A model generated the notes under the pieces. The model had not been told where the DNA came from, did not search any database, and saw nothing but the letters and a program-made list of their open reading frames with translations. The translations under genes and the position numbers were made by a program. 44,961 nt of DNA from Candidatus Saccharimonadota bacterium (GTDB lineage Bacteria > Patescibacteriota > Saccharimonadia > Saccharimonadales > Saccharimonadaceae), in assembly GCA_017447485.1 (NCBI GenBank), contig JAFSNI010000005.1:1-44961 (forward strand), in the 5' to 3' direction. Below are positions 9,750 to 43,647 of this stretch, piece after piece; the stretch's first letter is position 1; the number at the start of each line of letters is the position of its first letter.

Positions 9750-11017
9750 GAATCCAGCCCCCACTTTTTACGTCGCTCAATGGCCGCCTTTTCTCTTCGG
9801 CAAAGCTTTTTTGCATCTTTCGGATTTTTCAGCAGTTTTTCAATAATCCACTCAAGATACTGGCTACCCTTAAAAATCAAAGTTTCATTGCCATGAATAC
9901 GCTTTTCGATATAAGCCAGCGCCTTTTTAGGGTCGGTAGTCGCCACTGCCGAAACGCCTAGCTCCTTCAATCTCGGTGCCGTATATTCTTTAGTGCGTCG
10001 CCCCACCAGCACTACGCGCTCTGGCTTTACCGATGCGATTAGCTCGGCTAGTTTCTTATGCTCTTCCTCTTCCATTGAGCCTTGATCCACAATATCGCCA
10101 ATCACCAACCACTTTTTCTCCGCGTGCATTCGCTTCGCCATGTCCAGAATTGACGCCACTGAAATCATGTGCGCATTATAGCTACTATCTACAATTTGAA
10201 TGCCTTTTTTACCTTCGAAATAAGAACTTCGCCCCGGTGCTAATTTTAGCTTTGAAAAGTCCGGGTTAAACGGTAATTTTAAGTATTCCATCAAATCTTT
10301 TAGCACAAATAAATTGAATGCCACATCCTTTGGCTCTGGCGCATTAAAATGAAAAGTTGTGTCTCCATAGGTAAAATCCGTTGAATCCGGATAAACTACA
10401 TATTTTTTCATTAAGGATTTTTTAATTGGCACGACTTTAGCCTTAATCCCGCTAGTCGCCTCGACCATCAATCTTGAATCAGCGTCAATATAAACCCGTT
10501 TTGACGTATTTCGCGGCAAATTCGCAAATTCCGCCGTGATTGCCTCCGACAGATCTTTGAATTTCCCTTCTTTCACTACTTTTTCAAATTGCACCGCGTG
10601 CGAAAGCCCAATCGATACCCAGATCGTCACCTCTGGCTTCAGCCACTCGGCTAAAAACTCCGCCTCGTGCGGCCGCTCCCCATCAATTTCCACTACGTAA
10701 AACTTCTCTTTTCGGTGTTTAAATAGCCCCAAAAATGGCGCCGCGATAAACAACCAAATCCATTTTAGCTTTGACCCGCGAATACCTTTTAACCCTAAAA
10801 TGTCAAATGAAATTCCGAACGCCGAGTTAGCGTCATGTGAATAGTGCGCCCTTTTCCCTATTTCATGTTCCAACATTGTGAGCATCGTGGTCTTCCCGGC
10901 CGAACCAGTCACCGCAATTACTCGTGGATGCCACCTCTTTAATGCCCTACTTGCAAAATGCCGAAAATAAGCCGCCGCACGGAAATAAAACTTTTTTTTG
11001 AGTTCAGAAACACTCAT
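9746..11017 (-). CDS. Mur ligase family protein (MurF-like, no N-terminal domain)
   Basis: ATP-dependent amide ligase of the Mur family, 423 aa from the chosen start. The P-loop VTGSAGKTT is near residue 40, followed by the central ATPase domain and a C-terminal domain with DSSYNAHMISVASIL, the counterpart of the MurF DCYNANP segment, and GDIVDQG. MurF normally has an extra domain of about 80 residues before the P-loop; here there are only about 35 residues, so the substrate-binding part is missing or replaced. A hydrophobic insert (WLFIAAPFLGLF) could bring it to the membrane. The longest frame begins at TTG 11053, but that codon is part of the -35 box; the ATG at 11017 lies 7 bases after TATAAT, so the mRNA is probably leaderless. 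First gene of a five-gene coupled operon. Confidence 0.85.
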   Translation of the reverse strand: MSVSELKKKFYFRAAAYFRHFASRALKRWHPRVIAVTGSAGKTTMLTMLEHEIGKRAHYSHDANSAFGISFDILGLKGIRGSKLKWIWLFIAAPFLGLFKHRKEKFYVVEIDGERPHEAEFLAEWLKPEVTIWVSIGLSHAVQFEKVVKEGKFKDLSEAITAEFANLPRNTSKRVYIDADSRLMVEATSGIKAKVVPIKKSLMKKYVVYPDSTDFTYGDTTFHFNAPEPKDVAFNLFVLKDLMEYLKLPFNPDFSKLKLAPGRSSYFEGKKGIQIVDSSYNAHMISVASILDMAKRMHAEKKWLVIGDIVDQGSMEEEEHKKLAELIASVKPERVVLVGRRTKEYTAPRLKELGVSAVATTDPKKALAYIEKRIHGNETLIFKGSQYLEWIIEKLLKNPKDAKKLCRREKAAIERRKKWGLDS

Positions 11018-11024
11018 AAGAACC

Positions 11025-11053
11025 ATTATACCGCATATTGCTTTTTTAGGCAA
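11025..11053 (-). promoter_or_regulatory. Promoter of the Mur ligase-FemX operon
   Basis: Minus-strand TTGCCT (11048-11053), 17-base spacer, TATAAT (11025-11030), then 7 bases to the ATG. It overlaps the rpsJ promoter on the other strand (11038-11066), so RNA polymerase cannot occupy both. Confidence 0.8.
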
Positions 11054-11066
11054 AGTGTGCTATAAT
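11038..11066 (+). promoter_or_regulatory. rpsJ promoter
   Basis: TTGCTT (11038-11043), 17-base spacer ending in GTGTGC, TATAAT (11061-11066). Predicted start of transcription is near 11073, giving a leader of about 68 bases with an inverted repeat CTCTGA/TCAGAG (11093-11098 and 11122-11127) that could be an autoregulatory hairpin. Confidence 0.8.
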
Positions 11067-11140
11067 AGAAAGATAATAACATTAATTATCAACTCTGAAA
11101 AACTCCAGTCTTGAGAGGTTATCAGAGAAGAAAGGTCAAA

Positions 11141-11467
11141 ATGACAGAAACCAAGAAAGACGAAGGCTTAACTATTCGCATTCGCCTTAAAGCTTATGAT
11201 CATCGCGTGATTGATCAGAGCGCTCGCCAGATCGTGGATACTGCAATCCGCACTGGCGCTAAAGTTAGCGGTCCAATCCCGCTTCCAACCAAACGCAGCA
11301 CTTTCACCGTCGTGAAGTCGCCACACGTTTACAAAACCGGCGGCGAAGCTTTCGAGATGAAGGTTCATAAGCGCCTGATTGACATCGTCAGCGCCAACCC
11401 AAAGACGATCGAGAGCTTGCAAAATCTCTCTCTCCCGGCCGGCGTCGACGCAGAAATCAAGATGTAA
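11141..11467 (+). CDS. rpsJ: 30S ribosomal protein uS10
   Basis: Small-subunit protein S10 of the 30S head, also NusE in antitermination. It has 108 aa, with the family core [23 protein letters not shown] and [21 protein letters not shown]. The frame is open from TTG 11111, but the ATG at 11141 gives the normal short N-terminus before the conserved core and follows an AAAGG ribosome-binding site. S10 usually opens the large S10 ribosomal operon; here it is a monocistronic unit with its own promoter and terminator, next to tuf and fusA but on the opposite strand. Confidence 0.96.
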
Positions 11468-11475
11468 GATTTACT

Positions 11476-11504
11476 AAAAAGCCGCTTGAAATAGGCGGCT
11501 TTTT
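11476..11504 (+). terminator. rpsJ terminator
   Basis: A-run, stem GCCGC..GCGGC with AAAAAGCC/GGCTTTTT extension, followed by T-run. It lies eight bases after the rpsJ stop codon. Confidence 0.9.
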
Positions 11505-11513
11505 GCTGACCCA

Positions 11514-11542
11514 TTGACTTTTTTAACTATATATGCTATAAT
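11514..11542 (+). promoter_or_regulatory. Strong promoter of the 94-aa orphan gene
   Basis: TTGACT (11514-11519), 17-base spacer, TGC-TATAAT (11537-11542): near-perfect consensus with extended -10. The initial transcribed region AAAGACA resembles that of the 213-aa gene. Confidence 0.9.
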
Positions 11543-11550
11543 AAAGACAC

Positions 11551-11587: not shown

Positions 11588-11611
11588 AGTATTTTAAGAG
11601 AGGAGAACGTT

Positions 11612-11896: not shown

Positions 11897-11903
11897 TTTT
11901 TCG

Positions 11904-11930: not shown

Positions 11931-11942
11931 CGTTTTCCCAAC

Positions 11943-11973: not shown

Positions 11974-11988
11974 GCTAACGGTTATAAG

Positions 11989-19532: not shown

Positions 19533-19820
19533 TTACAACACCTTTGGAACTTTAATTTGGTTATCTTTTTCTTCTTTGGTCAGCGCCAACAACTCTTCGC
19601 GCGAAGCATCCTGCGGTAAAACTTCATCTTCTCGCCAAACATTCTCCATTTCAAAAACCTGATAAGTTGGCTCGACATCATCAGTATTTAACTCATCAAG
19701 TTGAGAAATATATCTAATAATACTTTGCAAATCTTTTGTCAGGCCCTCAATCTCGCCCTCTTCAAGCGAAATATTTGAAAGTCCAGCCAAATGAATAATA
19801 TCCTCGCGTTTTATTTCCAT
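19533..19820 (-). CDS. gatC: Asp-tRNA(Asn)/Glu-tRNA(Gln) amidotransferase subunit C
   Basis: Small stabilising subunit of the transamidase, 95 aa, with HLAGLSNISLEEGEIEGLTKDLQSII and the ELNTDDVEPTYQV segment of the family. First gene of gatC-gatA-(HEPN-like)-gatB. The ATG lies exactly 7 bases after TGC-TATAAT, so its mRNA is predicted to be leaderless. Confidence 0.95.
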   Translation of the reverse strand: MEIKREDIIHLAGLSNISLEEGEIEGLTKDLQSIIRYISQLDELNTDDVEPTYQVFEMENVWREDEVLPQDASREELLALTKEEKDNQIKVPKVL

Positions 19821-19827
19821 ATCTTAA

Positions 19828-19833
19828 ATTATA
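19828..19833 (-). promoter_or_regulatory. gatCAB operon -10 box (leaderless)
   Basis: Minus-strand TGC-TATAAT, 7 bases before the gatC ATG, close behind the murJ stop codon. No good -35 (TATTCA at 17 bases). Confidence 0.75.
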
Positions 19834-19836
19834 GCA

Positions 19837-21477
19837 CTATTTAGCGTTTCTGAATAATACTTTTTTAATATAGCCAATAATTGGTTGTGCTTCCTCGAGG
19901 TTTAGGAAGTAGCTTGCGATTAGATAAGACAAAATTGACAACGCCGAAATCAATAAGAACTTTGGTACTGTAATCACGAGCGATGTGTCTGTCGCCATCA
20001 GTGGAATAAATTTTGTGAGCGAGAAAGCCACGCAGGCCGCCACCGCCGTAGCAATTAGCATCTTGAGAGTGGTTTTCCAAAAGTCTCGGTTTAAAATCTT
20101 ATGTTCGCTACGTCTTTGCAAAATAAATAATAATATGATAATCTCGATAATTGCGCCGATCGACTGTGCGAGGCCCAGCCCATCCACTCCCCAACCGAGG
20201 AAATAAAACCAAACTGAAAGCGCAATCGTTAGTCCAATCGCAATAATTGAAACCCGGAACGGCGTTTTGGTGTCTTGATAAGCATAAAAACCGCGCGAGG
20301 CAATATGAAAAACGCTCCGCGCAAAAATTGCAATACATAAAGTGCCAAGCACAGACGCAATTGTCCCGTTGCTATCATTATTACCGATATTAGAAATGAA
20401 ACTCGTGACATATCCGCGCGTAAAGAACGCAATCGCCGCTACGGGCAGGGCAATCCATAAAATCATCCTGAGCGCCTTCCGGAAAGTATTATAGAACTCG
20501 CTTTTATCTCCCGACCCTAGCTCTTCGGTCAGTTTTGGGAAAAATGCTGTCGAGATCGCCACACCAATTAAATTCACCGGCATTTGATGAAGCGACGACG
20601 CTTGGTTAAACGATCGCACCGCTCCCGCACCCATCCGTGACGACAAATTTGTATTTACGATCGCGTTGACATAGTCAATTCCCTGGTCAAGCGATCGTGG
20701 CGGCAACAACTTTAAAATCGTGCGAAAGCCTTGATTTTTCCAATAAATCTTAAAATCATAATCAAATCCTAGCCCAAACAACCCAATCAAAGACACGATT
20801 AGCTGCATCACTGCGCCCAGAATCACGCCAATTGCTACCCCCATAATCCCGCCCTCAAAAATCTGCACGCCAAATAAATTGATACCACCGGTAAACCAAG
20901 TAATACCAATAATGATACCTATATTATATATAGCGGGTGCAAACGCATAGAATACAAACCTTCCGACCGCCTGCTGGACTGAGGTTAAAACCGTCGCAAT
21001 CGAGAATAAAAACGGGTTAATTGCAATCACGCGCGTCATGTTGATTGCTAGAATCATCCCTGACTCGTCTAGTCCCGGCGAAACCACGTAGCGGATCAAA
21101 GGGTCCGCAAAAATCATAATCAAGACCGAAGTAATTAAAGTCAGGAGTGCAAGCAAATTCAAAAGTGACGATGAAAGTTCCCATGCTGATTTCTTATTTC
21201 CGGTAATTAGCCTTTGGTTAAAAACTGGAATAAATGAAACCGCGAGCGCCCCTGAAGTTAAAATAAAAAACATAAAATCCGGGATTGTAAACGCCGCCGT
21301 ATAGGCGTCAATTCCAGTTGGATAAGTTCCGAGATAATACGAGTTTAAAAGTCGGTCGCGAAAAAGCCCCAAGAGTGCCGAAATCAAAGTCGAACTCGCC
21401 AGCACAATCGCCGCCGACTTCACCGACATCTTTGCATTTGCCATTGCCACAACTGACCGAAACTTAAACTTTTTCAT
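19837..21477 (-). CDS. murJ: Lipid II flippase MurJ
   Basis: Polytopic MOP-superfamily flippase that moves lipid II across the membrane, 546 aa with about 14 hydrophobic helices. Family features: SAALGLFRDRLL-like start (here LISALLGLFRDRLLNSYYLG), FIPVFNQRL, and the SLHQMPVNLIGVAISTAFFPKL block. The frame is open to 21744, but those 89 codons are antisense to the PBP gene and read as low-complexity Phe-rich sequence; the ATG at 21477 is 6 bases after TGT-TATAAT and gives the normal N-terminus. Divergent from the PBP gene with only 33 bases between start codons. Confidence 0.95.
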   Translation of the reverse strand: MKKFKFRSVVAMANAKMSVKSAAIVLASSTLISALLGLFRDRLLNSYYLGTYPTGIDAYTAAFTIPDFMFFILTSGALAVSFIPVFNQRLITGNKKSAWELSSSLLNLLALLTLITSVLIMIFADPLIRYVVSPGLDESGMILAINMTRVIAINPFLFSIATVLTSVQQAVGRFVFYAFAPAIYNIGIIIGITWFTGGINLFGVQIFEGGIMGVAIGVILGAVMQLIVSLIGLFGLGFDYDFKIYWKNQGFRTILKLLPPRSLDQGIDYVNAIVNTNLSSRMGAGAVRSFNQASSLHQMPVNLIGVAISTAFFPKLTEELGSGDKSEFYNTFRKALRMILWIALPVAAIAFFTRGYVTSFISNIGNNDSNGTIASVLGTLCIAIFARSVFHIASRGFYAYQDTKTPFRVSIIAIGLTIALSVWFYFLGWGVDGLGLAQSIGAIIEIIILLFILQRRSEHKILNRDFWKTTLKMLIATAVAACVAFSLTKFIPLMATDTSLVITVPKFLLISALSILSYLIASYFLNLEEAQPIIGYIKKVLFRNAK

Positions 21478-21483
21478 ATAATC

Positions 21484-21503
21484 ATTATAACACGTGATAT
21501 AAT
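21484..21503. promoter_or_regulatory. Back-to-back -10 boxes of murJ and the PBP gene
   Basis: Minus strand TGT-TATAAT (21484-21489), 6 bases before the murJ ATG; plus strand TGA-TATAAT (21498-21503), 7 bases before the PBP ATG. Both mRNAs are predicted leaderless, and the two promoters cannot be bound at the same time. Confidence 0.75.
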
Positions 21504-21510
21504 AATATAT

Positions 21511-24237
21511 ATGGCTAAAAAGAAAGTTGAAACTGCGAAAAAAACTTCTTCGAAAAAGACAACCCGAAGAAGTCGTAACACAAGATTTTTTAAAAAAGTT
21601 CAAGATTTTTTCAAAAATCATAAGGCTAGAAAAAAAGCTCGTCGCGAGGCCGAAGCTCGTCAGCATGCTGAAGACTTGGCTAAATTGCCAAAGGAGCCAG
21701 TTAAAAGATTTTTTGCTAGGCTTCATCCAAAACGGGTTTTTCATTGGTGGTTTTCATGGCGTGGTCAAAGAACTATTTTAAAAACGCTCGGCGTCCTATT
21801 CTTACTCATGGCGATAGGCATCGGCGGGCTATTTATTTATTACAAAAAAGATCTTGACGCGATTCGTCTTGACGAAATGAATATCTCCGAAACGGTAAAT
21901 ACATATCTCGACCGCAATGGTGTCGTGCTTTGGAAAGACACCGGAAACGATAATTATCGCCTCGTGGTTGATGCGGATGATATTTCCCCGTATATGTATC
22001 AGGCCACCATCGCGATTGAAGATCGTAATTTTTACAATCACATTGGCGTTGACCCAGCCGGCCTTATTCGCGCCGTCTTTTCGACTTTGTCTGGGCATGG
22101 CGTCCAGGGCGGTTCGACTTTGACTCAACAGCTTATCAAGCAGGTTTACTTTGCCGATGAGGCTCAAAGTGAAAATCGTGGTGGTCTCACGCGCAAGATT
22201 AAGGAGTTAATCCTCGCGATTGAACTTGAACGGATGTATTCTAAAGATCAGATTATTACCATGTATCTCAACCAGTCGCCTTACGGCGGTCGGCGTAATG
22301 GCGTGGAGTCTGCCGCCCAAACTTATTTTGGCAAATCCGCAAAAGATTTAACTTTAGCAGAGGCGGCTTTGCTCGCCGCAATTCCAAATAATCCGGCAGT
22401 GCTCAATCCATACAATGAATATGGTCACGAACAATTGATTTGGCGCCAGCAATACACTTTGGACGCAATGGTGGAAATGGGCTATATCACACAAGAAGAG
22501 GCTGATGCCGCTAAAGAAGTTGCTATTCTCGATACCATTAAGCCAGAGTCTAGCCAATATGCCGGTATGCTCGCTCCGCATTTTGTGCTCGAAGTGCGTT
22601 CGCAGCTTGAAGAAAAATATGGCATCTCGACTATGCGCGCTGGTGGCTGGACTATCACTACTACGCTCGACTACCGTGCCCAGCAAATTGCTGAAGACGC
22701 CGTCGCGGTAGGTAAGGGATATACCTATATTAATAAAAGTGACGATATTGCCCTAGTTTCAGTCGACGTTGAAACCTCGCAAGTAATCGCCATGGTCGGT
22801 TCAATCGACTTTTACAACACGACCTACGGCGAAGTTAACGTTACGACCGACTCTTTGATTGAACCAGGCTCTACCATTAAGCCAATCCTGGACTATTCCC
22901 CGCTCTTTATGCAGCGCGAAGGCATTAATTATGGCCCAGGTTCAATTTTGAAAGACGAAAACATTGATAAGCTTTATTGCGCCGGTTATACTGGCTCCTG
23001 TTCCATGTCTAATGCTACTGGCCAATTCTACGGCAACGTTACAATTCGCTTCTCACTAGGGCACTCGTTAAACATTGCCGCGGTTAAGGCACTATATATT
23101 AATGGCATAGATAATTCCCTTGAAATTGCGCACGCTCTTGGTGACACTAGCTTTTGCGAAAATCGCAGCTACTACGGCCTTTCAATCGCGATTGGCTCTG
23201 GTTGCGGCGTAAAAATGGTTGAACACGCTAACGCCTATGCTTCGCTTGCGCGTGGCGGGTCATATAAAGACATTTCCTACGTGCTTGAAGTTAAGAATTC
23301 CGCTGGCGACGTTATCGAATCTTGGACAGATTCTCCAGCTACGCGCGTCGTTGATGAGCAAGTTGCCTATATGATTTCAAGCATTTTGAGTGACCGCTCG
23401 GCGCGCTGGTTTAATAACGAAGGCTTCGTAGTCCCAGGAGTCTGGACTGCCACCAAAACTGGTACTACCACCACGTCCAACTCTGCCGTCACCAAAGATT
23501 CGTTGATGGAAAGCTACTCTACGGCAATCTCGACCCTAGTTTGGAACGGCAACCATGATGGCTCTGGTCTATCTTCTAACTCCAACAATGTCGTCCGCTA
23601 CACCATTGGTCATTATATGGAGCGGGTACATAAAGAGGTTTACGAACCTGAAGGCAAGTGGAGTTATGGTAGCCAACCAGTTAAACCGTCTGGGATTAAA
23701 ACTTTGACCGTCAATGGCCAGACTGACATTTGGCCAAGCTGGTTCAATGCAGAAAAGAACTCGGGCGTTTCAAAAGAGACCCTCGCCTTCAACCGCTATA
23801 CGCATACGCTCGCTAGCGACTGCACCCCAGAAGCCTATAAAATTGAAGTTGAAGTTACCAAAATTATCGACCCAGTGACTGGTAAGTCCGAATACACTGC
23901 ACCAGAACCGTATGACAGTGAAACCAGTGACACTTGCACTTACATTCCACCAGAAGTCTCCATCTCAACTAGTGGCGACAAAATCATTGCCACCATCAAA
24001 AAAGGCAGTGAAAAAATCTCTGGCTATACTCTTACTGTGGACGGCACTAATTACAATAACATCAGCGTCGCATCGGACGGCACCATCACTGGCTACACAT
24101 TGACCGGCGATGAAACCTCTCTCAAGTTCACCATCTCCGACGCCGCCGGATATACCGCCGTCTCAAACCTCACGCTCAAATCCTCTTCCGCTCAAAAATC
24201 TTCTAGTAGCTCTAGCTCAACTAAAACTACTAATTAG
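21511..24237 (+). CDS. Class A penicillin-binding protein (PBP1A-like)
   Basis: Bifunctional peptidoglycan glycosyltransferase/transpeptidase, 908 aa. It has a long, very basic cytoplasmic N-terminus (1-85), a transmembrane helix (about 90-110), a GT51 domain with catalytic Glu in IEDRNFYNHIG (E170), GSTLTQQLIK (201-210) and RKIKELILAIELE, then a transpeptidase domain with S454-x-x-K457 (GSTIKP), S519-L-N521 and K649-T-G. A C-terminal Ig-like module and a Ser-rich tail follow. Extended -10 lies 7 bases before the ATG. Partner of MurJ, transcribed divergently; its end overlaps the convergent PIN-TRAM gene by 4 bases. Confidence 0.96.
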   Translation: MAKKKVETAKKTSSKKTTRRSRNTRFFKKVQDFFKNHKARKKARREAEARQHAEDLAKLPKEPVKRFFARLHPKRVFHWWFSWRGQRTILKTLGVLFLLMAIGIGGLFIYYKKDLDAIRLDEMNISETVNTYLDRNGVVLWKDTGNDNYRLVVDADDISPYMYQATIAIEDRNFYNHIGVDPAGLIRAVFSTLSGHGVQGGSTLTQQLIKQVYFADEAQSENRGGLTRKIKELILAIELERMYSKDQIITMYLNQSPYGGRRNGVESAAQTYFGKSAKDLTLAEAALLAAIPNNPAVLNPYNEYGHEQLIWRQQYTLDAMVEMGYITQEEADAAKEVAILDTIKPESSQYAGMLAPHFVLEVRSQLEEKYGISTMRAGGWTITTTLDYRAQQIAEDAVAVGKGYTYINKSDDIALVSVDVETSQVIAMVGSIDFYNTTYGEVNVTTDSLIEPGSTIKPILDYSPLFMQREGINYGPGSILKDENIDKLYCAGYTGSCSMSNATGQFYGNVTIRFSLGHSLNIAAVKALYINGIDNSLEIAHALGDTSFCENRSYYGLSIAIGSGCGVKMVEHANAYASLARGGSYKDISYVLEVKNSAGDVIESWTDSPATRVVDEQVAYMISSILSDRSARWFNNEGFVVPGVWTATKTGTTTTSNSAVTKDSLMESYSTAISTLVWNGNHDGSGLSSNSNNVVRYTIGHYMERVHKEVYEPEGKWSYGSQPVKPSGIKTLTVNGQTDIWPSWFNAEKNSGVSKETLAFNRYTHTLASDCTPEAYKIEVEVTKIIDPVTGKSEYTAPEPYDSETSDTCTYIPPEVSISTSGDKIIATIKKGSEKISGYTLTVDGTNYNNISVASDGTITGYTLTGDETSLKFTISDAAGYTAVSNLTLKSSSAQKSSSSSSSTKTTN

Positions 24238-24926
24238 CGGCGACTAGGTTTAGCTAGTTTTGCGAAGATCATTTTGCCGGCAGGGGTTTCGTAGAACTTG
24301 ACAAACTCCACCATTACGTCGCGCCCTACTTTACTTGCTGCACCATCTACTACCACCATTGTTCCATCATTTAGGTGCCCAACACCTTGACCGCGCCCTG
24401 AACCCTTTTCCGAAATTTTAATCTTAATTCTCTCTCCCGGCAAAAACTCGCTTCTGGTAGCGAGAGCTAACTCATTGATGTTTAAAGCCTCAATTTTTTC
24501 CGCCTCCGCTACCTTAATCAAATTATAATCTAGCGTTAAAATTGCGCCTTTGTTTTCCCGAGCATATTTTAGCAGCGCCTCGTCGACTTTTTTAACTCCG
24601 CTTTCGTCGCTAACAACTTCAGTATTTATATTCACTACTCTTTCAAGTTCCGCCGCAACCGTTAGCCCAGCCCTTGCGCGCGTGCGTTTATCAGAATCTT
24701 TGCCATCCGCCAGGAGTTGTAATTCTAGAAGTACAGACCTCAAAATTATCAAGTCACCGTCCAAAAAACCGCTTTTTGCAACGTTTAAAATTCTCCCATC
24801 GATCAAGGCGGAAGTGTCAACGTAAATTTTACGTCGGTTACTAGACGTCAATTTGTATTTTCTAAAAACTAAAATCGTTGTTTCAGCTAGAATCGCTAAA
24901 GCCACTAACAAAATAAATAATTCCAT
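24234..24926 (-). CDS. PIN-TRAM domain protein (YacL-like)
   Basis: A 230-aa protein with an N-terminal membrane helix (1-20), a PIN nuclease domain starting KIYVDTSALIDGRI with acidic residues in VDTSALIDGR, LLELQ and LTLDYNLIKVAE, and a C-terminal TRAM domain (GERIKIKISEKGSGRGQGVGHLNDGTMVVVD region) that usually binds RNA. This is the layout of YacL/PilT-like proteins of Gram-positives, thought to act on RNA; the target is unknown. TGT-TATAAT lies 7 bases before its ATG. Confidence 0.9.
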   Translation of the reverse strand: MELFILLVALAILAETTILVFRKYKLTSSNRRKIYVDTSALIDGRILNVAKSGFLDGDLIILRSVLLELQLLADGKDSDKRTRARAGLTVAAELERVVNINTEVVSDESGVKKVDEALLKYARENKGAILTLDYNLIKVAEAEKIEALNINELALATRSEFLPGERIKIKISEKGSGRGQGVGHLNDGTMVVVDGAASKVGRDVMVEFVKFYETPAGKMIFAKLAKPSRR

Positions 24927-24933
24927 GAATTTT

Positions 24934-24939
24934 ATTATA
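24934..24939 (-). promoter_or_regulatory. -10 box of the PIN-TRAM gene (leaderless)
   Basis: Minus-strand TGT-TATAAT, 7 bases before the ATG, just after the phosphoketolase C-part stop codon. Confidence 0.7.
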
Positions 24940-24949
24940 ACAGAAAATA

Positions 24950-27048: not shown

Positions 27049-27050
27049 GC

Positions 27051-29015: not shown

Positions 29016-29021
29016 AATAAA

Positions 29022-29027
29022 ATTATA
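29022..29027 (-). promoter_or_regulatory. uvrB -10 box (leaderless)
   Basis: Minus-strand TGG-TATAAT, 6 bases before the uvrB ATG. Confidence 0.7.
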
Positions 29028-29045
29028 CCATATTCCGCCTAGGCT

Positions 29046-29972
29046 TTAGAATTGTAGCAGAGCAACACCGATTACTACCAAAACAGTAGCAGCCAAATGC
29101 ACTAAAACACTTTTCCGATTTAGTTTCTCGCGTCCGAACTTTGGCCAAATTAAAGTCAGAATAATTCCCATAAAGAAAATCACGATGGGTTCGGTCGAAT
29201 CCGCCGCCGCTGAAGCTAGTGCTACAGATGGCGCCAGGAGCAGGGCTCCCCGATAAGTAAAATCTTTAATCAGGCTAAAACTTAAAGTCCCCATGAGTGG
29301 TTTTAACACTTTGCGGCGGCTAGCTTTATAAACATCCCGAAACCGCTTGACCCATTTCGGCCTCAAGGCCATAATGATAACGTTCCCGATACCTTTTCCA
29401 AACATTACCAGCGTCATACTACCTAGAAAACTAATTTCCGTCGCGGAATTTTCTTTTACGAAAATCAAATTACTACTTACGGAGATTAAAACGTAGAGAA
29501 ACGCATAAAAAATTGCACGCAGTTTAATTTTGCGACTACGTTTCCGCGTGGTTAATACGATCAAAACCGGCGCAACCATAATTACGATAAATGCTACCAT
29601 TTGCAAAAGCGAAATTGACTCCCCTAAAAACAGCCAGCCTAGCACCAAATATAAAACCGGTGCCACCTGAATAAAAATCCCAAGATTTGTCGAATCGTCA
29701 ATTTCAAGCGCCTTGTAATATGGGATCCCCGCTAAACTCGTGCAGATTCCAGACAGTATCAAGAATAAAATTATTTTGATATCAACGCCGAGAAAGTCAA
29801 AACCAGAAATTATGGCCAGAATTATCGCCACAACAATAAACGCAAACGCAAAAAACATTTTTTGCGCCACCGCTAAACGCCCCTTAAAATAAAAATCCGA
29901 AATATAATTATCAATATAGATATGCGAAGAACCAGCCAGCACCGCGAACAAAACCAAAATCAACCAGTCCAT
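29046..29972 (-). CDS. DMT-superfamily transporter (EamA-like)
   Basis: A 308-aa membrane protein with about ten transmembrane helices in two halves, as in EamA/DMT exporters. Characteristic bits are PYYKALEIDDSTNLGIFIQVAPVL (end of helix 3-4), LGESISLLQMVAFIVIMVAPVLIV and the C-terminal half ASAAADSTEPIVIFFMGIILTLIWP. The substrate is unknown; DMT members export amino acids, nucleotides or other metabolites. TGC-TAAAAT lies 6 bases before the ATG. Confidence 0.85.
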   Translation of the reverse strand: MDWLILVLFAVLAGSSHIYIDNYISDFYFKGRLAVAQKMFFAFAFIVVAIILAIISGFDFLGVDIKIILFLILSGICTSLAGIPYYKALEIDDSTNLGIFIQVAPVLYLVLGWLFLGESISLLQMVAFIVIMVAPVLIVLTTRKRSRKIKLRAIFYAFLYVLISVSSNLIFVKENSATEISFLGSMTLVMFGKGIGNVIIMALRPKWVKRFRDVYKASRRKVLKPLMGTLSFSLIKDFTYRGALLLAPSVALASAAADSTEPIVIFFMGIILTLIWPKFGREKLNRKSVLVHLAATVLVVIGVALLQF

Positions 29973-29978
29973 GCTAGT

Positions 29979-29984
29979 ATTTTA
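29979..29984 (-). promoter_or_regulatory. -10 box of the DMT transporter (leaderless)
   Basis: Minus-strand TGC-TAAAAT, 6 bases before the ATG, close to the end of lysS. Confidence 0.65.
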
Positions 29985-29993
29985 GCATAAAAA

Positions 29994-31442
29994 CTATGAT
30001 TCAGCACGTTTCATCGTTGGGAATGGCACCGCTTCACGGCCAGGCACACCTTCGAGTAGCCAGAAGTTCCGTTCCGAGTTTCCCCAACCGCAAGCTGGCG
30101 GCATCCCGTATTCCAACATCTCTACAAAATCACGGTCAAGCATTTGCGCTTCATCATCGCCCGCATCACGCGCAGCCTGCTGCTCTTCGAAACGTTGCAA
30201 CTGGTCTAGCGGGTCGTTCAACTCCGAAAAACCATTCCCCATTTCCGTCCCGGCAATTACTGGGTGGAATCTTTCTGTCACCAGTGGGTTTTCAGCAGAT
30301 TTTTTCGCAAGCGGCGACAACGAAAGCGGTTCTTCAATTAGCCAGTATGGCCCCGCCGAAGTTTTGCGAATCAACTTCCAAACATGGTCAATCAAATGCG
30401 GCGTGGTCGTCTTCGAATCAACTTCGACTCCATTTTCTTTCAATGTTTTTAGTAATTGTTCGCGGTCTGGATTAAACACATCCACATTGAACTTTTCTTT
30501 CAGTAAATCTGCATATTTATAACGCGGCCATTCGCAGTCTAAATCGATATCAAAACCGCCGACATGAAACTTCAAAGTCCCCCAAGTCTCTTTAGCAACA
30601 TATTTAATCATTTCTTCGTAAAGTTTCATGCCATCTTCATAATTCTCGTAAGCCGCATAAGACTCAAAAGCGATATGCTCTGGCAAATGTTCATCGTCGA
30701 CGCCTTCGTTACGGAAACGAGCGCCGATGTCATAGACTTTTTCAAAACCGCCACCGAGCAGGCGCTTAAGTGGCAGCTCGTGGGAAATCCGCAGATAAAA
30801 ATCCTCGTCCAAGGCATTCATATGAGTTACGAATGGCGTTGCGTCAGCACCACCAGTTGTGTGCTCAAGCACCGGAATATTGATTTCAATAAAACCGTGT
30901 GCATTCATGAAATCGCGCGTAGCTTGCCAAAACTTACTGCGTCGCACCAAACGCGCGCGCACTTCCGGATTCACGTTCATATCAACGTAACGCCGACGGT
31001 AGCGCTCTTCCTTATTGGTGAATTTTTCTGGCAGAGGCCGTAATGATTTCGTTAGTAGTCTCACAAAATCCGCAAATACTGAAATCTCCCCAGTCTGCGA
31101 CTTATCAACGACGCCAGTCGCTTCTACAAAATCACCCGTATCAAGCAGCTTTACATCTTTTGCTCCGAACACTCCTTCTGGGACCGCGTCAGAAGCTTTC
31201 ATAAAAATTTGTACCTCGCCTGTATAATCACGTAACTTCAAAAATACCAACTTTCCAAACGATCTAATCGCTACGATGCGTCCAGCCACAGTGACTTCTT
31301 GACCTTGTTTTTCATCGAAATGATTTACGACATCAAAAATCTCGGTGTTTCGATAGCTCTTTGCCGGATAAGGATCAATGCCCCGTGCCCGAATCTCTTC
31401 TAATTTTCTAATTCTTTCGTTTCGATAATCTTCCAGTAACAT
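29994..31442 (-). CDS. lysS: Lysyl-tRNA synthetase, class II
   Basis: Charges tRNA(Lys), 482 aa. OB-fold anticodon-binding domain (about 55-150), then class II core: motif 1 region FIEINIPVLEHTTGGADATPF, THMNALDEDFYLRISHELPLKRL and motif 2 ARFRNEGVDDEHLPEHIAFE. Motif 3, normally GxGxGxxR, here reads PPACGWGNSERNFWLL, keeping the Arg but missing a glycine and one residue. The C-terminal GVPGREAVPFPTMKR matches the family end. ATG lies 6 bases after TATAAT within a perfect palindrome. Confidence 0.93.
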   Translation of the reverse strand: MLLEDYRNERIRKLEEIRARGIDPYPAKSYRNTEIFDVVNHFDEKQGQEVTVAGRIVAIRSFGKLVFLKLRDYTGEVQIFMKASDAVPEGVFGAKDVKLLDTGDFVEATGVVDKSQTGEISVFADFVRLLTKSLRPLPEKFTNKEERYRRRYVDMNVNPEVRARLVRRSKFWQATRDFMNAHGFIEINIPVLEHTTGGADATPFVTHMNALDEDFYLRISHELPLKRLLGGGFEKVYDIGARFRNEGVDDEHLPEHIAFESYAAYENYEDGMKLYEEMIKYVAKETWGTLKFHVGGFDIDLDCEWPRYKYADLLKEKFNVDVFNPDREQLLKTLKENGVEVDSKTTTPHLIDHVWKLIRKTSAGPYWLIEEPLSLSPLAKKSAENPLVTERFHPVIAGTEMGNGFSELNDPLDQLQRFEEQQAARDAGDDEAQMLDRDFVEMLEYGMPPACGWGNSERNFWLLEGVPGREAVPFPTMKRAES

Positions 31443-31469
31443 AAGATAATTATACTATAATTATCTTAT
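31441..31469. repeat. Perfect 14-bp palindrome at the greA/lysS junction
   Basis: Arms ATAAGATAATTATA (31441-31454) and its exact reverse complement (31456-31469), centre C31455. It covers the greA stop codon and the first base of lysS, and contains the lysS TATAAT (31449-31454 on the minus strand). It may be an operator, a weak hairpin, or a symmetric promoter. Confidence 0.8.
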
Positions 31470-31934: not shown

Positions 31935-33161
31935 TTACAGTATCTCGGCAAGCTTGTCAATAGTAATCATCTTGCTTTCACCGGTCTTCCGCGCGGTCAC
32001 CTCTGCGGCTCCTTCCGCCAAGGTCTTGTCTGAGATCACAATTCGATAAGGCATTCCCATCAGTTCCGCATCGGCGAATTTTTCACCTGGTCTTAAGTTC
32101 CGGTCATCAAACAAAACCGTTTCTTCATGTGTGGCATAAAACTTTTCAGCCTCAGCCGTCCCTTTTTCACCAATTCCGATTAACTGGGCTTTAAACGGAG
32201 CAACCGTTTCTGGCCAGCAAAGACCTTTCTCATCAGCGAATTTTTCCGCAATTACGCCCATCACACGCGAAACGCCAATTCCATAGCAACCCATATAAAC
32301 AGTTTTTTGCTCATTATTTTCATCGTTAAATTGTAAGCCTAAAGGTTCAGAATATTTATATTTTAGTTTAAAGATATTGCCAACCTCGGCGGCCGCAGTT
32401 TCGGTAAATGCCTCATTTTCTACACCAAGATCTTTCAAGACCTCTTCGTTAAAGACTTCTTTGTTAACTACGACAGATTTGTCACTATTATAATATATAG
32501 TGTCTTCACCAACCGGCAAGAAAGTCTGATATTCATGCGAGTATTTTGCAAAAATCCCGCCGCTTGCAAAAGTCTTGTAGGTTTCCGTTAGTCCTAGCCG
32601 AGCGTAAATCCTATCATAGGCCTTCTCAACTTCCGCATAGTAGCGATCTAGATCTTCTTCAGTCGCATGAAACGAATACATATCTTTCATTAAAAATTCG
32701 CGCCCGCGCAAAATACCAGACTTCGCTCGTTTCTCATTGCGGAATTTAGTCTGGAACTGGTAAACCGCGAGCGGCAAATCTTTGTAGCTGGAAATATAAG
32801 TTTTCATTAAATTAGTAATCGGCTCTTCATGTGTCGGCGCTAGCCCCACTACCCCACCGGATGACAACTCGGTTTTAAACCAAATGTCAACTTCTTGGTC
32901 AGAAAACCGCCCGGTTTTTTCCCATAGTTCCGGATTTTGTAAGGCCGAGAGCATCACCTCTTGCCCGCCGATTTTATTTAGCTCTTCCCTGATAACGGCT
33001 TTGATTTTTTCGAGTACCATCAGCCCAAGTGGTAGAAAATCATACACCCCAGCCATTTCCTTATGGATATACCCAGCCCGCGAAAGTAAAGCCCCATTTT
33101 TTGCAATCTCATCTTTTGGAGCTTCGCGCAAAGTCTTGATAAAAGTTTCAGATAATTTCAT
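31935..33161 (-). CDS. proS: Prolyl-tRNA synthetase (short, no INS domain)
   Basis: Charges tRNA(Pro), 408 aa. Class II motifs are present: motif 2 with FRNEKRAKSGILRGREFLMKD and motif 3 with GCYGIGVSRVMGVIAEKF, plus the C-terminal anticodon-binding domain. Standard bacterial ProS is about 570 aa because of an editing domain (INS) between motifs 2 and 3; here only about 100 residues separate them, so cis-editing of mischarged Ala-tRNA(Pro) is absent. Short forms without INS are known in other bacteria. TGA-TATAAT lies 6 bases before the ATG. Confidence 0.94.
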   Translation of the reverse strand: MKLSETFIKTLREAPKDEIAKNGALLSRAGYIHKEMAGVYDFLPLGLMVLEKIKAVIREELNKIGGQEVMLSALQNPELWEKTGRFSDQEVDIWFKTELSSGGVVGLAPTHEEPITNLMKTYISSYKDLPLAVYQFQTKFRNEKRAKSGILRGREFLMKDMYSFHATEEDLDRYYAEVEKAYDRIYARLGLTETYKTFASGGIFAKYSHEYQTFLPVGEDTIYYNSDKSVVVNKEVFNEEVLKDLGVENEAFTETAAAEVGNIFKLKYKYSEPLGLQFNDENNEQKTVYMGCYGIGVSRVMGVIAEKFADEKGLCWPETVAPFKAQLIGIGEKGTAEAEKFYATHEETVLFDDRNLRPGEKFADAELMGMPYRIVISDKTLAEGAAEVTARKTGESKMITIDKLAEIL

Positions 33162-33167
33162 AGGTAT

Positions 33168-33173
33168 ATTATA
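33168..33173 (-). promoter_or_regulatory. proS -10 box (leaderless)
   Basis: Minus-strand TGTGA-TATAAT, 6 bases before the proS ATG, overlapping the last bases of the CPBP gene region. Confidence 0.7.
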
Positions 33174-33899
33174 TCACACCCCAAGCACATAGAGCAGATA
33201 AAACGCTAGGCCGTTTTTAACCATGTGAGTCAAAATCCCAGCATAGATCGTCCCGGTAATCTCGCGCAAAACACAAAGCACGACAGACAAACAAAACACA
33301 TTCACGCCCACATTCCACTGCATGTGAATTGCGCCAAATAATACTGATACGATTAAGATCGATATTAATATGCCAACCCGCTCCGGCACTTTACCGTTTA
33401 ATTTTTCGCGTATTTTACCATACAGCCAACCACGAAAGATAATTTCCTCTGCAATTGGCGCGACTACTACTAAAGTCAAAAATGCAATAATTCGATCACC
33501 ACCAGACATATAAATATTAAACCCGACATCTTGAGCCTCATTAGCATCAAACCACGGAAAAATGCTAAACAACGCAACCAGCCCCGCCGCTAGCAAAGTC
33601 GATACGATAAAAGCGACCGGAGAAAGCCCGACATCCGTCCAAGTTGGCCAACCGGTTAGCCCCAGCTCACTGCGAGAGGTTTTAGTGATTTTGCGCGGCA
33701 CAAAAATTATTAAGACTAGTGCCACCGAGTATGACAGGGCCGAATAAACTGCTGTCCAAACCGGCTGCGATAACGCCTCGCGCCCAAATATCAAAATAAT
33801 CAGCCATCCAATCACAAATTGCGAGGCGATTACGGAAACTAAAACCCATAAACACATTAAAACAATTCCAAAAACGCTACTTTTAGGTGCTCTTTTCAT
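33174..33899 (-). CDS. CPBP family intramembrane metalloprotease
   Basis: A 241-aa polytopic protein with the CPBP (Abi/CAAX prenyl endopeptidase-like) motifs: EEIIFRGWLYGKI (glutamate pair and Arg) and FGAIHMQWN with a conserved His. About seven membrane helices. Family members process prenylated proteins, bacteriocins or other membrane substrates; the target here is unknown. I use the ATG at 33899, which overlaps the rseP stop as TGATG and has GAGG seven bases before it, rather than TTG 33902. Confidence 0.85.
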   Translation of the reverse strand: MKRAPKSSVFGIVLMCLWVLVSVIASQFVIGWLIILIFGREALSQPVWTAVYSALSYSVALVLIIFVPRKITKTSRSELGLTGWPTWTDVGLSPVAFIVSTLLAAGLVALFSIFPWFDANEAQDVGFNIYMSGGDRIIAFLTLVVVAPIAEEIIFRGWLYGKIREKLNGKVPERVGILISILIVSVLFGAIHMQWNVGVNVFCLSVVLCVLREITGTIYAGILTHMVKNGLAFYLLYVLGV

Positions 33900-34900
33900 C
33901 AAAAGAACCTCGTGATGTCTAGCACCGTCACAATCAACATCAAGGCCAGTAACACCACAAAAGCCCGCGCCACGATTTTCTCTTCAATTTCTTTAGTCAA
34001 TTTTTTACGACGCAACTTATAAAGCCCAATCAAGAACCACCGTCCACCATCTAGCGCTGGTATTGGCAGAACGTTCATACAGGCCAGCGAAATTGAAATA
34101 ATCGCGGCAAGATACGCCAGATTTGACGGACCGGCCGAAGTAAACGTTGGGAACAATACCCCTACAATCCCAACTGGACCAGAAACCGATTCTCCCACGC
34201 TAGAAATTGCTTCTTGCCCGCTCTCGCGCACGCTCGCGTCAAAGCTAAATAACCTTCCCACGCCCGAGATTAAATTCCATAGTAGTTCCCCTAAACCCTG
34301 AAAAGTTTGTCCGGTGATTTGTAGGGTAATCCCCGCTCCCACGATCGGCGCCGACCAAGTTGAGTACCGAATTTTTTGCGGCGTCCGCACTTCGTTCCCC
34401 TCGTCGTCTGTAGTAACGACTACAATTTCCGTAGACTCTTCCACCCGCGTGTCAGATTCAACCGAAAATTGCCCCGGCAAGAACTCTGGCATCCCCGTCC
34501 AAGCTAAAACCGTCAAAATCAAAAACGCCACTAACCAGTTCATCGCCACGCCAGCGAATAAAATCTTGGTTTTTGCCCAAAAACTCGCCGCCCCAAACGT
34601 CCCTTTTCGCTCGTCGAACGCCGATTCTCCATCCATTTGGCAAAAACCGCCAATCGGCAACCAGTTCAAACTAAAAATCAAACCTTCTTGCGGCTTCCCC
34701 CAGTCCTTTTTCTTGAACCGTTTCCACTTCTTCGTTTTTGGATCCTTCACCCAAGCAATCGCTCTCGGCGGGAAACCGATCCCAAACTCTAGAACCCTGA
34801 CGCCATTTCTGCGCGCAGCAACAAAATGCCCCAGCTCGTGTAAAGTCACGAGTAGCATCAGCACGAAAAGCCCAACGATAACCCCTACGAAAATATCCAT
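33899..34900 (-). CDS. rseP: Site-2 zinc metalloprotease RseP
   Basis: Intramembrane protease, 333 aa, with TLHELGHFVAARRNGV (HExxH zinc site, about residues 20-25) and the second motif NVLPIPALDGGRWF near 270-283 supplying the third metal ligand Asp. Between them lies an extracytoplasmic insert with the sequence EESTEIVVVTTDDEGNEV, likely a degenerate PDZ. It cleaves anti-sigma factors or signal peptides in other bacteria. TGC-TATAAT lies 7 bases before the ATG. Cotranscribed with CPBP. Confidence 0.93.
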   Translation of the reverse strand: MDIFVGVIVGLFVLMLLVTLHELGHFVAARRNGVRVLEFGIGFPPRAIAWVKDPKTKKWKRFKKKDWGKPQEGLIFSLNWLPIGGFCQMDGESAFDERKGTFGAASFWAKTKILFAGVAMNWLVAFLILTVLAWTGMPEFLPGQFSVESDTRVEESTEIVVVTTDDEGNEVRTPQKIRYSTWSAPIVGAGITLQITGQTFQGLGELLWNLISGVGRLFSFDASVRESGQEAISSVGESVSGPVGIVGVLFPTFTSAGPSNLAYLAAIISISLACMNVLPIPALDGGRWFLIGLYKLRRKKLTKEIEEKIVARAFVVLLALMLIVTVLDITRFF

Positions 34901-34907
34901 ATATATT

Positions 34908-34913
34908 ATTATA
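34908..34913 (-). promoter_or_regulatory. rseP -10 box (leaderless)
   Basis: Minus-strand TGC-TATAAT followed by AATATAT and the ATG; the same TATAATAATATATATG string precedes the PBP gene. Confidence 0.75.
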
Positions 34914-34916
34914 GCA

Positions 34917-40255: not shown

Positions 40256-40346
40256 TGGTGCGCCTGACTAGACTCGAACTAGCACAGCCGTGAATCTGGC
40301 CACTACCACCTCAAGGTAGCGTGTCTACCAATTCCACCACAGGCGC
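40256..40346 (-). tRNA. tRNA-Leu (GAG anticodon)
   Basis: Minus strand. 91 bases with encoded CCA (40256-40258). Acceptor GCGCCTG pairs with CAGGCGC; anticodon stem CTACC/GGTAG with loop TTGAGGT gives GAG (reads CUC/CUU). A long variable arm and TTCGAGTC T-arm fit class II tRNA-Leu. Predicted -10 TGA-TATAAT at 40355-40360. Confidence 0.95.
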
Positions 40347-40354
40347 ATACAAAC

Positions 40355-40360
40355 ATTATA
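40355..40360 (-). promoter_or_regulatory. tRNA-Leu -10 box
   Basis: Minus-strand TGA-TATAAT, 8 bases before the mature tRNA 5' end; no clear -35. Confidence 0.6.
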
Positions 40361-40374
40361 TCATACTTTTCGCA

Positions 40375-42111: not shown

Positions 42112-42112
42112 A

Positions 42113-42340
42113 TTATGCCGGAATTAATAATAACCCCAAAATTGATCCCACAAACACCACCGACGTCACGATAGTTGCTACGAACATTGATTTTTCCAAA
42201 CCGCGCCGCGTCGTGTAAAGTTCGCCCGAGCTACCAAAGCCGGCCCCGAGCGACGCTCCGCGCTGTTGCAACAAAATCAAAACTACCGTAAGGAAAGCCG
42301 AGATAAATATCACTACTTCTAGAAAACTTCCGATCTGCAT
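42113..42340 (-). CDS. secG: Preprotein translocase subunit SecG
   Basis: Small SecYEG subunit, 75 aa, with two transmembrane helices and the conserved linker LQQRGASLGAGFGSSGELYTTRRGLEK. AAGGAG Shine-Dalgarno; TGC-TAAAAT -10 at 42361-42366. Cotranscribed with the binding protein downstream. Confidence 0.94.
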   Translation of the reverse strand: MQIGSFLEVVIFISAFLTVVLILLQQRGASLGAGFGSSGELYTTRRGLEKSMFVATIVTSVVFVGSILGLLLIPA

Positions 42341-42358
42341 AATAACTCCTTTATATAT

Positions 42359-43612
42359 CTATTTTAGCATATTTTTTCGTTTCAGCAAAGAATGATACGT
42401 AATCGCAAACCGATGTGCCTCTTCATCAATTCTCGCTATCAGCCGTGCGAGGTGAGAACTTTTTGACAATGGAATGATTTTACCGCCCACGATAATTTTT
42501 ACTTCTGCACTTCTCGCATGGTTGCCAGACTTATCGCGCCCAATTACCGGAATCCCATGTGGCTCGACTAGCGGCAAGATTGCCTTCACCTGCGCCACGC
42601 CGCCATCCAGTAAAATCAAATCTGGATACTCCCATTCCGTATGTCTCAGCCGCCGCGAAATCACCTCAGTCATGCTTCTTAAATCATCGTTCGTGGATGT
42701 CCGAATCTTAAATTTCCGGTACTCATTTCGCGCAGAAGCTCCGTTTAAAAACACCACCATACTCGCCACCGTGTTCGTCCCCGATTGGTGCGAAATGTCA
42801 TACCCCTCAATCCGCCGCGGCGGTTTTTCTAGCCCTAGTAAACGCTTCAATTCCATTAGTGCTTGATCCGACGAAATATCCAGAAACTCTTTATCTGAAA
42901 ATATAATCTTTTTTTGCAGCTCTTTCAGCCCAAACCACTGGTTTCGCGCTTCTGCCGCGAGTTCATAGTTCCCCTTCGCCGCCTCCGTGTACATCGTTTT
43001 TTCTAAATCTTTGAGTAATTTTTCGCGGTCTCCCTCAAGATAGCGTATCAACTTCCTGAGATTCCGCTTATAATCGCGCGGTGTCGCTCGCCCCACTTCA
43101 ATCCCCGGCGTCAGCCCAAGGTCAGTGTCCAAAGTTTTTTTGCCGCTATAGGGCTTTATATAATACGGAAAAATCCGCCGGAGCATTCGCACGGCTTTCT
43201 CGACACTAGATTTTCCATAAAATGGGCCAATATAGGTCGCTCCGTCATCCACGGGATTTCGCGTAAAACTAATATACGGCACTTCTGATTTCATGTCGAT
43301 TCTCACATACGACACCGTTTTATCGTCGCGAAGCAGGATGTTCCATTTCGGCTTGTAGCGCTTAATCATTTCGGACTCCAAAAACAGCGCGTCCATCTCC
43401 GTGTCTACCACAATCCAATCCGTATCAAAAATCTCCGCCACTAGCGCCGCCGTCTTAACGTCTTTTTCGGACTTCTGAAAATATTGTCTAACTCGGTTCT
43501 TTAAAACCGCCGCCTTGCCCACGTAGATAATCTCACCCGCGGCATTTTTATGAAAATAAACCCCCGGGCTTGCCGGGAGTTTCTGAAGTTTTTGTTTTAG
43601 CCTCTCGTCCAT
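42359..43612 (-). CDS. uvrC: Excinuclease ABC subunit C, shortened
   Basis: Dual-incision endonuclease of excision repair, 417 aa versus about 600 normally. The GIY-YIG domain (ASPGVYFHKNAAGEIIYVGKA, NRVRQYF, LESEMIKRYKPKWN), the UVR motif (ELAAEARNQW region) and the RNase H-like domain (GYDISHQSGTNTVASMVVF, LLDGG, DEEAHRFAITYH) are complete. The Cys-rich iron-sulfur segment after the first nuclease domain has no cysteines (FPYYIKPYSGKKTLDTDL), and the C-terminal helix-hairpin-helix domain is missing. It is not a recent truncation: secG begins 19 bases after the stop. ATG is 6 bases after TATAAT of a consensus promoter. Confidence 0.93.
   Translation of the reverse strand: MDERLKQKLQKLPASPGVYFHKNAAGEIIYVGKAAVLKNRVRQYFQKSEKDVKTAALVAEIFDTDWIVVDTEMDALFLESEMIKRYKPKWNILLRDDKTVSYVRIDMKSEVPYISFTRNPVDDGATYIGPFYGKSSVEKAVRMLRRIFPYYIKPYSGKKTLDTDLGLTPGIEVGRATPRDYKRNLRKLIRYLEGDREKLLKDLEKTMYTEAAKGNYELAAEARNQWFGLKELQKKIIFSDKEFLDISSDQALMELKRLLGLEKPPRRIEGYDISHQSGTNTVASMVVFLNGASARNEYRKFKIRTSTNDDLRSMTEVISRRLRHTEWEYPDLILLDGGVAQVKAILPLVEPHGIPVIGRDKSGNHARSAEVKIIVGGKIIPLSKSSHLARLIARIDEEAHRFAITYHSLLKRKNMLK
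42361..42366 (-). promoter_or_regulatory. secG -10 box
   Basis: Minus-strand TGC-TAAAAT at the 3' end of uvrC, 20 bases before the secG ATG, with AAAGGAG in the leader. Confidence 0.6.
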
Positions 43613-43618
43613 CTTTTA

Positions 43619-43647
43619 ATTATAGCACACTTTCTCAAAAAAGTCAA
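43619..43647 (-). promoter_or_regulatory. uvrC promoter (leaderless)
   Basis: Minus-strand TTGACT (43642-43647), 17-base spacer starting TTTTT and ending GTGTGC, TATAAT (43619-43624), 6 bases from the ATG. Confidence 0.9.

Follow-up and report, generated by a model that had tools for sequence, protein, structure and literature searches.

The window analysed here is a stretch of 44,961 nucleotides from a Candidatus Saccharimonadota bacterium (contig JAFSNI010000005.1 of assembly GCA_017447485.1, contig 24 of 24 in a genome assembled to 612,171 bp and 87% complete). An earlier note had described in it twelve genes whose ATG is preceded at 6 or 7 bases by a TATAAT or TAAAAT box, ten of them with TGn before the box, and had proposed that their messenger RNAs (mRNAs) are leaderless, that is, begin at or near the start codon without room for a Shine-Dalgarno (SD) site. 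All twelve boxes are present, TATAAT in eleven genes and TAAAAT in one, with a spacing of 7 bases in five genes and of 6 in seven, and TGn is found in ten. They are listed below with the fraction of orthologues scored leaderless, along with one box upstream of a tRNA gene.

11017..11033, minus strand: murF-like gene (murF family match below the curated NCBIfam cut-off); box TATAAT at 11025-11030, no TGn (CGG), spacing 7, start codon beginning at 11017
19820..19836, minus strand: gatC; box 19828-19833, TGC, spacing 7; orthologues leaderless 28/32
21475..21492, minus strand: murJ; box 21484-21489, TGT, spacing 6; orthologues leaderless 8/9
21495..21513, plus strand: PBP gene (PBP1A-like by NCBIfam); box 21498-21503, TGA, spacing 7; orthologues 2/2
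24926..24942, minus strand: PIN-TRAM gene; box 24934-24939, TGT, spacing 7; orthologues leaderless 2/10
27048..27063, minus strand: phosphoketolase, N-terminal part (family match by NCBIfam); box 27055-27060, TGA, spacing 6; orthologues 12/12
29015..29030, minus strand: uvrB; box 29022-29027, TGG, spacing 6; orthologues 66/79
29972..29987, minus strand: DMT transporter gene; box TAAAAT at 29979-29984, TGC, spacing 6; no orthologue among the loci compared
31442..31457, minus strand: lysS; box 31449-31454, no TGn (TAG), spacing 6; orthologues 7/8
33161..33176, minus strand: proS; box 33168-33173, TGA, spacing 6; orthologues 3/6
34900..34916, minus strand: rseP; box 34908-34913, TGC, spacing 7; orthologue 1/1
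40347..40363, minus strand: the same TGATATAAT box, upstream of tRNA-Leu (40256-40346)
43612..43627, minus strand: uvrC; box 43619-43624, TGC, spacing 6, with a -35 element TTGACT at a 17-bp spacer; orthologue 1/1

The name gatC is that of the earlier note, no NCBIfam match having been found for this gene at 1e-25. Eight genes described there as leadered (tuf, fusA, frr, tsf, rpsB, secG, galU and greA) do have AAGGA-, GGAG- or AGGAG-type sites, all eight of them.

Spacing and nature of the box

Statistics were obtained from a sample of 205 kb, made up of the window and eight 20-kb stretches of the same genome. Open reading frames (ORFs) were called by our own greedy script, whose gene total varies with the cut-off (174, 173 or 188); the 173-gene set holds genes of at least 120 amino acids. 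In this set exact TATAAT lies at spacing 6 in 39 genes, at 7 in 14 and at 8 in five, with 0-9 genes at each of the remaining spacings from 0 to 30, while about 0.2 genes per spacing are expected from shuffling the upstream 60 nt. Allowing one mismatch, a box is found at 6-7 in 63/173 genes (36%) as against 9/173 at a control spacing of 13-14. Gene calls are not needed to see the pattern: an ATG follows TGNTATAAT (TGnTATAAT) at spacing 6 in 42 places, at 7 in 17 and at 8 in six, once each at 4 and 5, and at most six times at any other spacing up to 30. Among the 108 such boxes in the sample, 59 have ATG at 6-7 and three have GTG or TTG there. Across the whole genome TGNTATAATN{6,7}ATG occurs at 119 places, the reversed pattern at one and the version with spacing 13-14 at seven. 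The box-ATG spacing is thus far above chance, and the spacing distribution, which had been proposed as a check, has a sharp peak at 6-7 with nearly nothing at 4-5. ATGs below spacing 6 would be few because a start codon there would sit upstream of the transcription start.

For a closer view of the motif the 59 strongest leaderless genes were aligned, exact TATAAT being the selection rule and TGn being required only of the five genes with spacing 8. The resulting logo reads T (68%), purine (92%), T (97%), G (92%), n, TATAAT, and it holds no -35 consensus. All 59 genes start with ATG, and in none of the 59 does a 4-base SD core lie 3-11 nt before the start. Together with the peak at 6-7, this supports the proposal that the mRNAs would begin at or near the start codon with no room for an SD site.

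The box could alternatively be a translation signal, A/U-rich or S1-binding like those proposed for some non-SD genes, within a longer leader whose real promoter lies further upstream. In keeping with this, S1-domain proteins and IF3 are encoded in 6/6 genomes of the genus, and a discussion of AT-rich biases ahead of genes considers that they may be S1 sites (PMC5397173, in the part available to us). The motif has, however, the full TRTGnTATAAT form of a promoter. At 12 places, with 18 tRNAs listed, TGnTATAAT is found no more than 40 nt ahead of tRNA genes, and since tRNA genes are not translated, this argues for a promoter. The same motif also stands at least 20 bases upstream of SD genes, several with TTGACA. 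Judged by its sequence and by where it occurs, the box is most probably a promoter rather than a translation signal, and we give the alternative very little credence. The best sigma-70 match in each of the six genus genomes covers regions 2-4 and keeps RTIRIPVHMVETI and VTRERIRQIEAKAL, which we take to be the TGn-contact and the -35-contact region, respectively.

A near-consensus -35 element (5 or 6 of 6 bases, spacer 16-18) accompanies 3/53 leaderless boxes, 0/12 tRNA boxes, 5/18 boxes of SD-led genes, 5/18 unassigned boxes and 3/7 boxes with ATG at 6-8 but no called gene, compared with 1.6% of random positions.

Position in transcription units and gene function

Transcription units were examined for 188 genes, of which 65 were called leaderless and 55 SD-led, the seven without a called upstream neighbour being left out. 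Behind a same-strand neighbour the leaderless fraction is 2/46 at a gap of at most 5 bp, 12/21 at 6-15 bp, 17/27 at 16-40 bp (29/48 for 6-40 bp together) and 13/37 above 40 bp; among divergent genes it is 20/50. Leaderless starts therefore head transcription units, even where the promoter lies near or inside the end of the preceding gene. The suggestion of two translation-initiation regimes holds, and its clearest divider is this position (2/46 at gaps up to 5 bp vs 29/48 at 6-40 bp).

Short gaps might themselves force promoters towards start codons, or the pattern might be a by-product of AT-rich intergenic DNA. Gaps are indeed short: of the 64 leaderless genes that have a neighbour, 29 sit 6-40 bp behind a same-strand gene. 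Such an origin is nevertheless highly improbable in view of the shuffled expectation, the nearly empty spacings 4-5 and low counts at 13-14, the leaderless genes with gaps above 40 bp or divergent neighbours, and the conservation of the class over deep divergence described below.

Function divides the genes less cleanly. The earlier note had seen envelope, repair, aminoacylation and metabolism genes mainly as leaderless and translation factors mainly as leadered. An NCBIfam scan covered 50/65 leaderless genes, 36 of which matched a family at the chosen threshold, and 20/55 SD-led genes, eight of which did so, operon-internal genes remaining mostly unannotated; the matches to murF, rseP, pheS, ftsA, xerD, dusB, pcrA and rnhA are below the curated cut-off. 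Nine synthetase genes are leaderless (pheS, serS, hisS, glyS, tyrS, aspS, lysS, proS and alaS), as are many genes of repair and recombination (uvrB, uvrC, a pcrA-like helicase gene, recG, ruvB, a rarA-like gene, dnaG and an xerD-like gene) and of cell wall and division (murA, the murF-like gene, the PBP gene, an ftsA-like gene and ftsE), while tuf, fusA, frr, rpsB, the L25 gene and dnaK are leadered. This part of the division stands. It does not extend to the leaderless prfB, obgE and dusB-like genes, to the leadered metabolism genes galU and ackA, or to some synthetase genes that are leadered in sister species; relA/spoT, tpiA and a pgk-like gene are further leaderless genes. A purely functional split was accordingly given less weight, since transcription-unit position separates the classes more sharply. 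The gene tsf, listed in the earlier note as leadered, follows rpsB at a distance of 13 bp and probably sits inside an operon.

SD-led initiation does not seem to have been lost, because the S1 and IF3 genes mentioned above are present and the anti-SD sequence CCTCC is kept in two 16S genes of the same family from other genera. The Rfam 16S model matched in 2/5 genomes (G123 and G168) and not in G109, G157 or G244; the pattern GGNTCACCTCCTTT had no match in G000, which is uninformative since the family 16S reads GGATTACCTCC. In the leadered dnaK (L085, about 15239-15265) a repeat TTAGCACTC-N9-GAGTGCTAG, presumably CIRCE-like, lies between promoter and start codon. YchF has been reported to promote leaderless translation; in its accessible text, a paper on bacteria of the candidate phyla radiation (CPR) describes this protein as broadly conserved (PMC12641178).

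Inheritance, spread and interpretation

Orthologues were taken from 80 loci of UvrB relatives, 64 of them titled Saccharibacteria or Saccharimonas/-monadia/-monadales and the other 16 titled 'bacterium', Patescibacteria, Nomurabacteria or Chloroflexi. The closest named UvrB relatives, at 90-85% identity, are titled Candidatus Saccharibacteria, several from ruminant gut samples. An orthologue was scored leaderless by a lax rule, which asks for a start within 45 nt of the aligned one and for a -10 box 5-8 bases ahead of that start. By this rule uvrB is leaderless in most relatives (66/79) though the surrounding sequence differs, and its starts line up across them. Orthologues of the leaderless window genes taken together score leaderless in 131/161 cases (65/82 without uvrB). 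Those of twelve other window genes, tsf being left out, do so in 16/178, which is also the background rate of the lax rule, and 12 of these 16 cases belong to galU and dnaE. On this comparison the leaderless class is inherited gene by gene and is kept over deep divergence.

The class I synthetase genes ileS, valS, leuS and metG were named by eye within PF00133 matches of the six genus genomes. Their starts have a box within one mismatch at 6-8 in 18/23 cases (ileS 4/6, valS 3/6, leuS 5/5, metG 6/6); one leuS start, cut by a contig end, is not among the 23. The leadered exceptions are ileS of G109 (L121), ileS and valS of G375 (L117 and L124), valS of G361 (L122) and valS of G387 (L126), most of them with an SD-like site, while their genus orthologues are leaderless. 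The G109 ileS leader looks T-box-like by eye, and Rfam reports none there. A riboswitch link for the leadered synthetase genes was dropped, Rfam having returned only tRNAs in the window, L117, L121, L122, L124, L126, L085 and L082. For groEL the leaderless count is 0/6 genus genomes; it is a poor test of the leadered class, because in four of them the preceding sequence looks like the end of groES and the gene is probably operon-internal.

Exact TGNTATAATN{6,7}ATG sites number 106, 115, 119, 129, 132 and 142 in the six genus genomes, with 7-17 at spacing 13-14, and 2 to 106 in each of the other 115 family genomes. Such sites are present in 274/286 genomes of the phylum, beyond the family often about 10 of them (by eye), and reversed controls give 0-5 per strand. 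In pooled named loci, with one mismatch allowed, a box lies at 6-7 in 108/346 genes of the nearer relatives (L001-L028 and L077) and in 33/243 and 55/453 genes of two more distant sets, as against 2-4% at 13-14. By these counts the leaderless regime is old in Saccharibacteria and has been strongly amplified in this genus. With 2 to 142 exact sites per genome within one family, the gain of leaderless expression should be traceable by comparison. The distant relatives (L029-L080 except L077) show a smaller second ATG peak at spacing 10 after TGNTATAAT (10 places, 80 boxes).

Misassigned ATGs, with the true starts downstream behind SD sites, are the least probable alternative of all: although in seven of the 59 leaderless genes the longest ORF has a start codon earlier than the one assigned, and weak SD-like candidates precede a later in-frame start in some of the 59, in the other 52 the assigned codon is the first, the uvrB starts align across relatives, and the start codons are independently supported because NCBIfam alignments begin a few residues from the predicted Met (UvrB, ProS, UvrC, SerS, GlyS, ObgE, AlaS, FtsE and DnaG).

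We are therefore left with a reading of which we are confident, namely that the genes of the window and the genus with a box at 6-7 bases are driven by extended -10 promoters that would give leaderless mRNAs without an SD site. The spacing, the ATG starts, the missing SD sites, the promoter nature of the box and its inheritance gene by gene are all read from the sequence. T-R-T-G-n-TATAAT would be placed such that transcription is initiated at the A of the ATG, or one to two bases ahead of it, by RNA polymerase, and the mRNA would begin 5'-AUG; from this we infer both the exact transcription start and a direct binding of the ribosome, probably as 70S, to the 5' AUG. A leaderless start would be the commonest way to begin a transcription unit in this genus. 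Operon-internal genes would use SD sites or coupling to the preceding gene, and a smaller set of heads (tuf, fusA, rpsB, dnaK), probably highly expressed or regulated, would have a 5' leader with an SD site, several with a TTGACA-like -35 element.

A number of observations weigh against this reading. Orthologues are leaderless in only 2/10 cases for the PIN-TRAM gene and 3/6 for proS, and those of galU (5/22) and dnaE (7/21) score leaderless though the window copies do not. Exact TATAAT is present at only 11/23 class I synthetase starts, and the box is absent at ileS in two genomes and at valS in three. With spacing 8, or if transcription began one to three bases away from the predicted position, very short leaders rather than none would be expected on some mRNAs. 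Finally, a rule by which leaderless promoters lack a -35 element and leadered ones have it did not stand up firmly: 3/53 vs 5/18 gives p=0.02, but adding the seven boxes of uncalled genes turns the former into 6/60 with p=0.11, so that the contrast is only suggestive.

If the reading is true, about a third of the genes in this genus of reduced and probably host-dependent bacteria are started with no ribosome-binding site, alongside SD-led genes. This would bear on how 5'-AUG mRNAs are translated with IF3 and S1 both present, and would affect the prediction of start codons and the design of reporters for cultured Saccharibacteria. Lomsadze et al. (2018) is said to be a gene-prediction paper that models leaderless transcription.

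Divergent gene pairs and known systems

Some divergent genes appear to share one promoter region. The pattern CATN{2,4}TATAATTATAN{2,4}ATG, which by construction holds overlapping -10 elements on both strands, has 18 sites in 10/121 family genomes, and its reversed control occurs in one genome. Thirteen sites belong to the genus, five in this genome and 3, 2, 1, 1 and 1 in the other five; the remaining five are in four other genomes. All 18 were read, and in 14, including 12 of the 13 of the genus, open frames of 65 codons or more start on both sides. The frame on one side has 6, 23 and 2 codons in L106, L108 and L110, respectively, while L101 runs into a contig end.

The full 20-bp form CATGnTATAATTATAnCATG makes up 7/18 sites. 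From the geometry of the search pattern the two boxes have 2 bp in common, so that transcription is predicted to start at points 15 bp apart. The 20-bp form has its start codons 14 bp apart, each of them overlapping the TG in the promoter of the opposite gene. Because of this overlap, polymerase could transcribe just one of the two genes at any moment, and neither gene's promoter and start codon could change without affecting those of the other.

The pairs comprise tpiA with a HAD-like gene (14 bp between start codons), dnaG with a membrane-protein gene (three genomes), murC with tsaE (two), glyS with an ABC transporter gene (two), ung with tdk (this genome and the named locus L077), an rRNA/tRNA methyltransferase-like with a glutaredoxin-like gene and, in G336, smpB with a glycosyltransferase-like gene; a lexA-like gene is paired in G157 and one-sided in G375. 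The names tpiA and dnaG are by NCBIfam, the dnaG pair of G361 and G387 is by BLAST, and the others were read from N-termini. Kept between species are ung/tdk and glyS/ABC transporter in the 20-bp form, and dnaG/membrane-protein gene and murC/tsaE in near forms. On balance we favour the view that CATGnTATAATTATAnCATG combines two extended -10 promoters and two start codons of divergent housekeeping genes, both with predicted leaderless mRNAs, and that the same gene pairs keep it between species; it is perhaps the smallest possible bidirectional unit. In the window itself (21475-21513) the divergent murJ and PBP genes, both predicted leaderless, have back-to-back, non-overlapping promoters with 33 bp between start codons.

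Leaderless genes with a -10 box beside the ORF are already known in bacteria. Comparisons here extend to the parts of the cited papers that were accessible. The '-10-motif' genes of Deinococcus-Thermus, about 30% of ORFs and shown by reporters to have promoters (PMC12340547, which also scanned 'common phyla'), likewise have a -10 box a few bases before the ORF and no SD site. Their motif is TANNNT; here the sequence shows a strong TRTGnTATAAT in a reduced genome of 46% GC, and unlike there, some copies are common to two divergent genes. Zheng et al. (2011, PMC3160421) described TA-led leaderless genes in Actinobacteria and Deinococcus-Thermus. In both sets the first T of the TA box is about 12 bp upstream of the start and translation genes (COG J) are less often leaderless, and the leaderless fraction here (36%, by another method) is close to their Deinococcus-Thermus mean of 39.4%; 'TM7' was absent from the main text as accessible. 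Bidirectional promoters arising from -10 symmetry (Warman et al. 2021, as described in PMC10268837) share the overlapping opposite-strand -10 elements with the palindromes, divergent transcription being described there and predicted here. Their start distance is usually 18 bp in Salmonella (the class spans 7-25 bp) and one RNA is often non-coding, whereas here 15 bp and two leaderless mRNAs are predicted.

A literature search that mostly did not cover subscription papers, and in which most papers were judged by title and the opening of the abstract, found no report of leaderless genes in Saccharibacteria, TM7, Patescibacteria or the CPR, nor of bidirectional leaderless promoters, and the accessible parts of PMC12641178, PMC6851277 and PMC7441243 hold nothing on leaderless genes of Saccharibacteria. 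New here, in our view, are the occurrence in Saccharibacteria, the strong form of the motif (TRTGnTATAAT) and the palindromes shared by two genes.

The N-terminal phosphoketolase gene of the window (24950-27048 with its neighbour, 310 amino acids) matches only about the first third of a family of about 800 amino acids. The next gene (389 amino acids, 4-bp overlap) may be the remainder, though a family search did not identify this second piece; the enzyme seems to be split into two genes, whose orthologues occur in 12 and 10 loci. Both proS (31935-33161, 408 amino acids) and uvrC (42359-43612, 417 amino acids) are far shorter than their family models and match them in two separate stretches, so that internal parts look missing.

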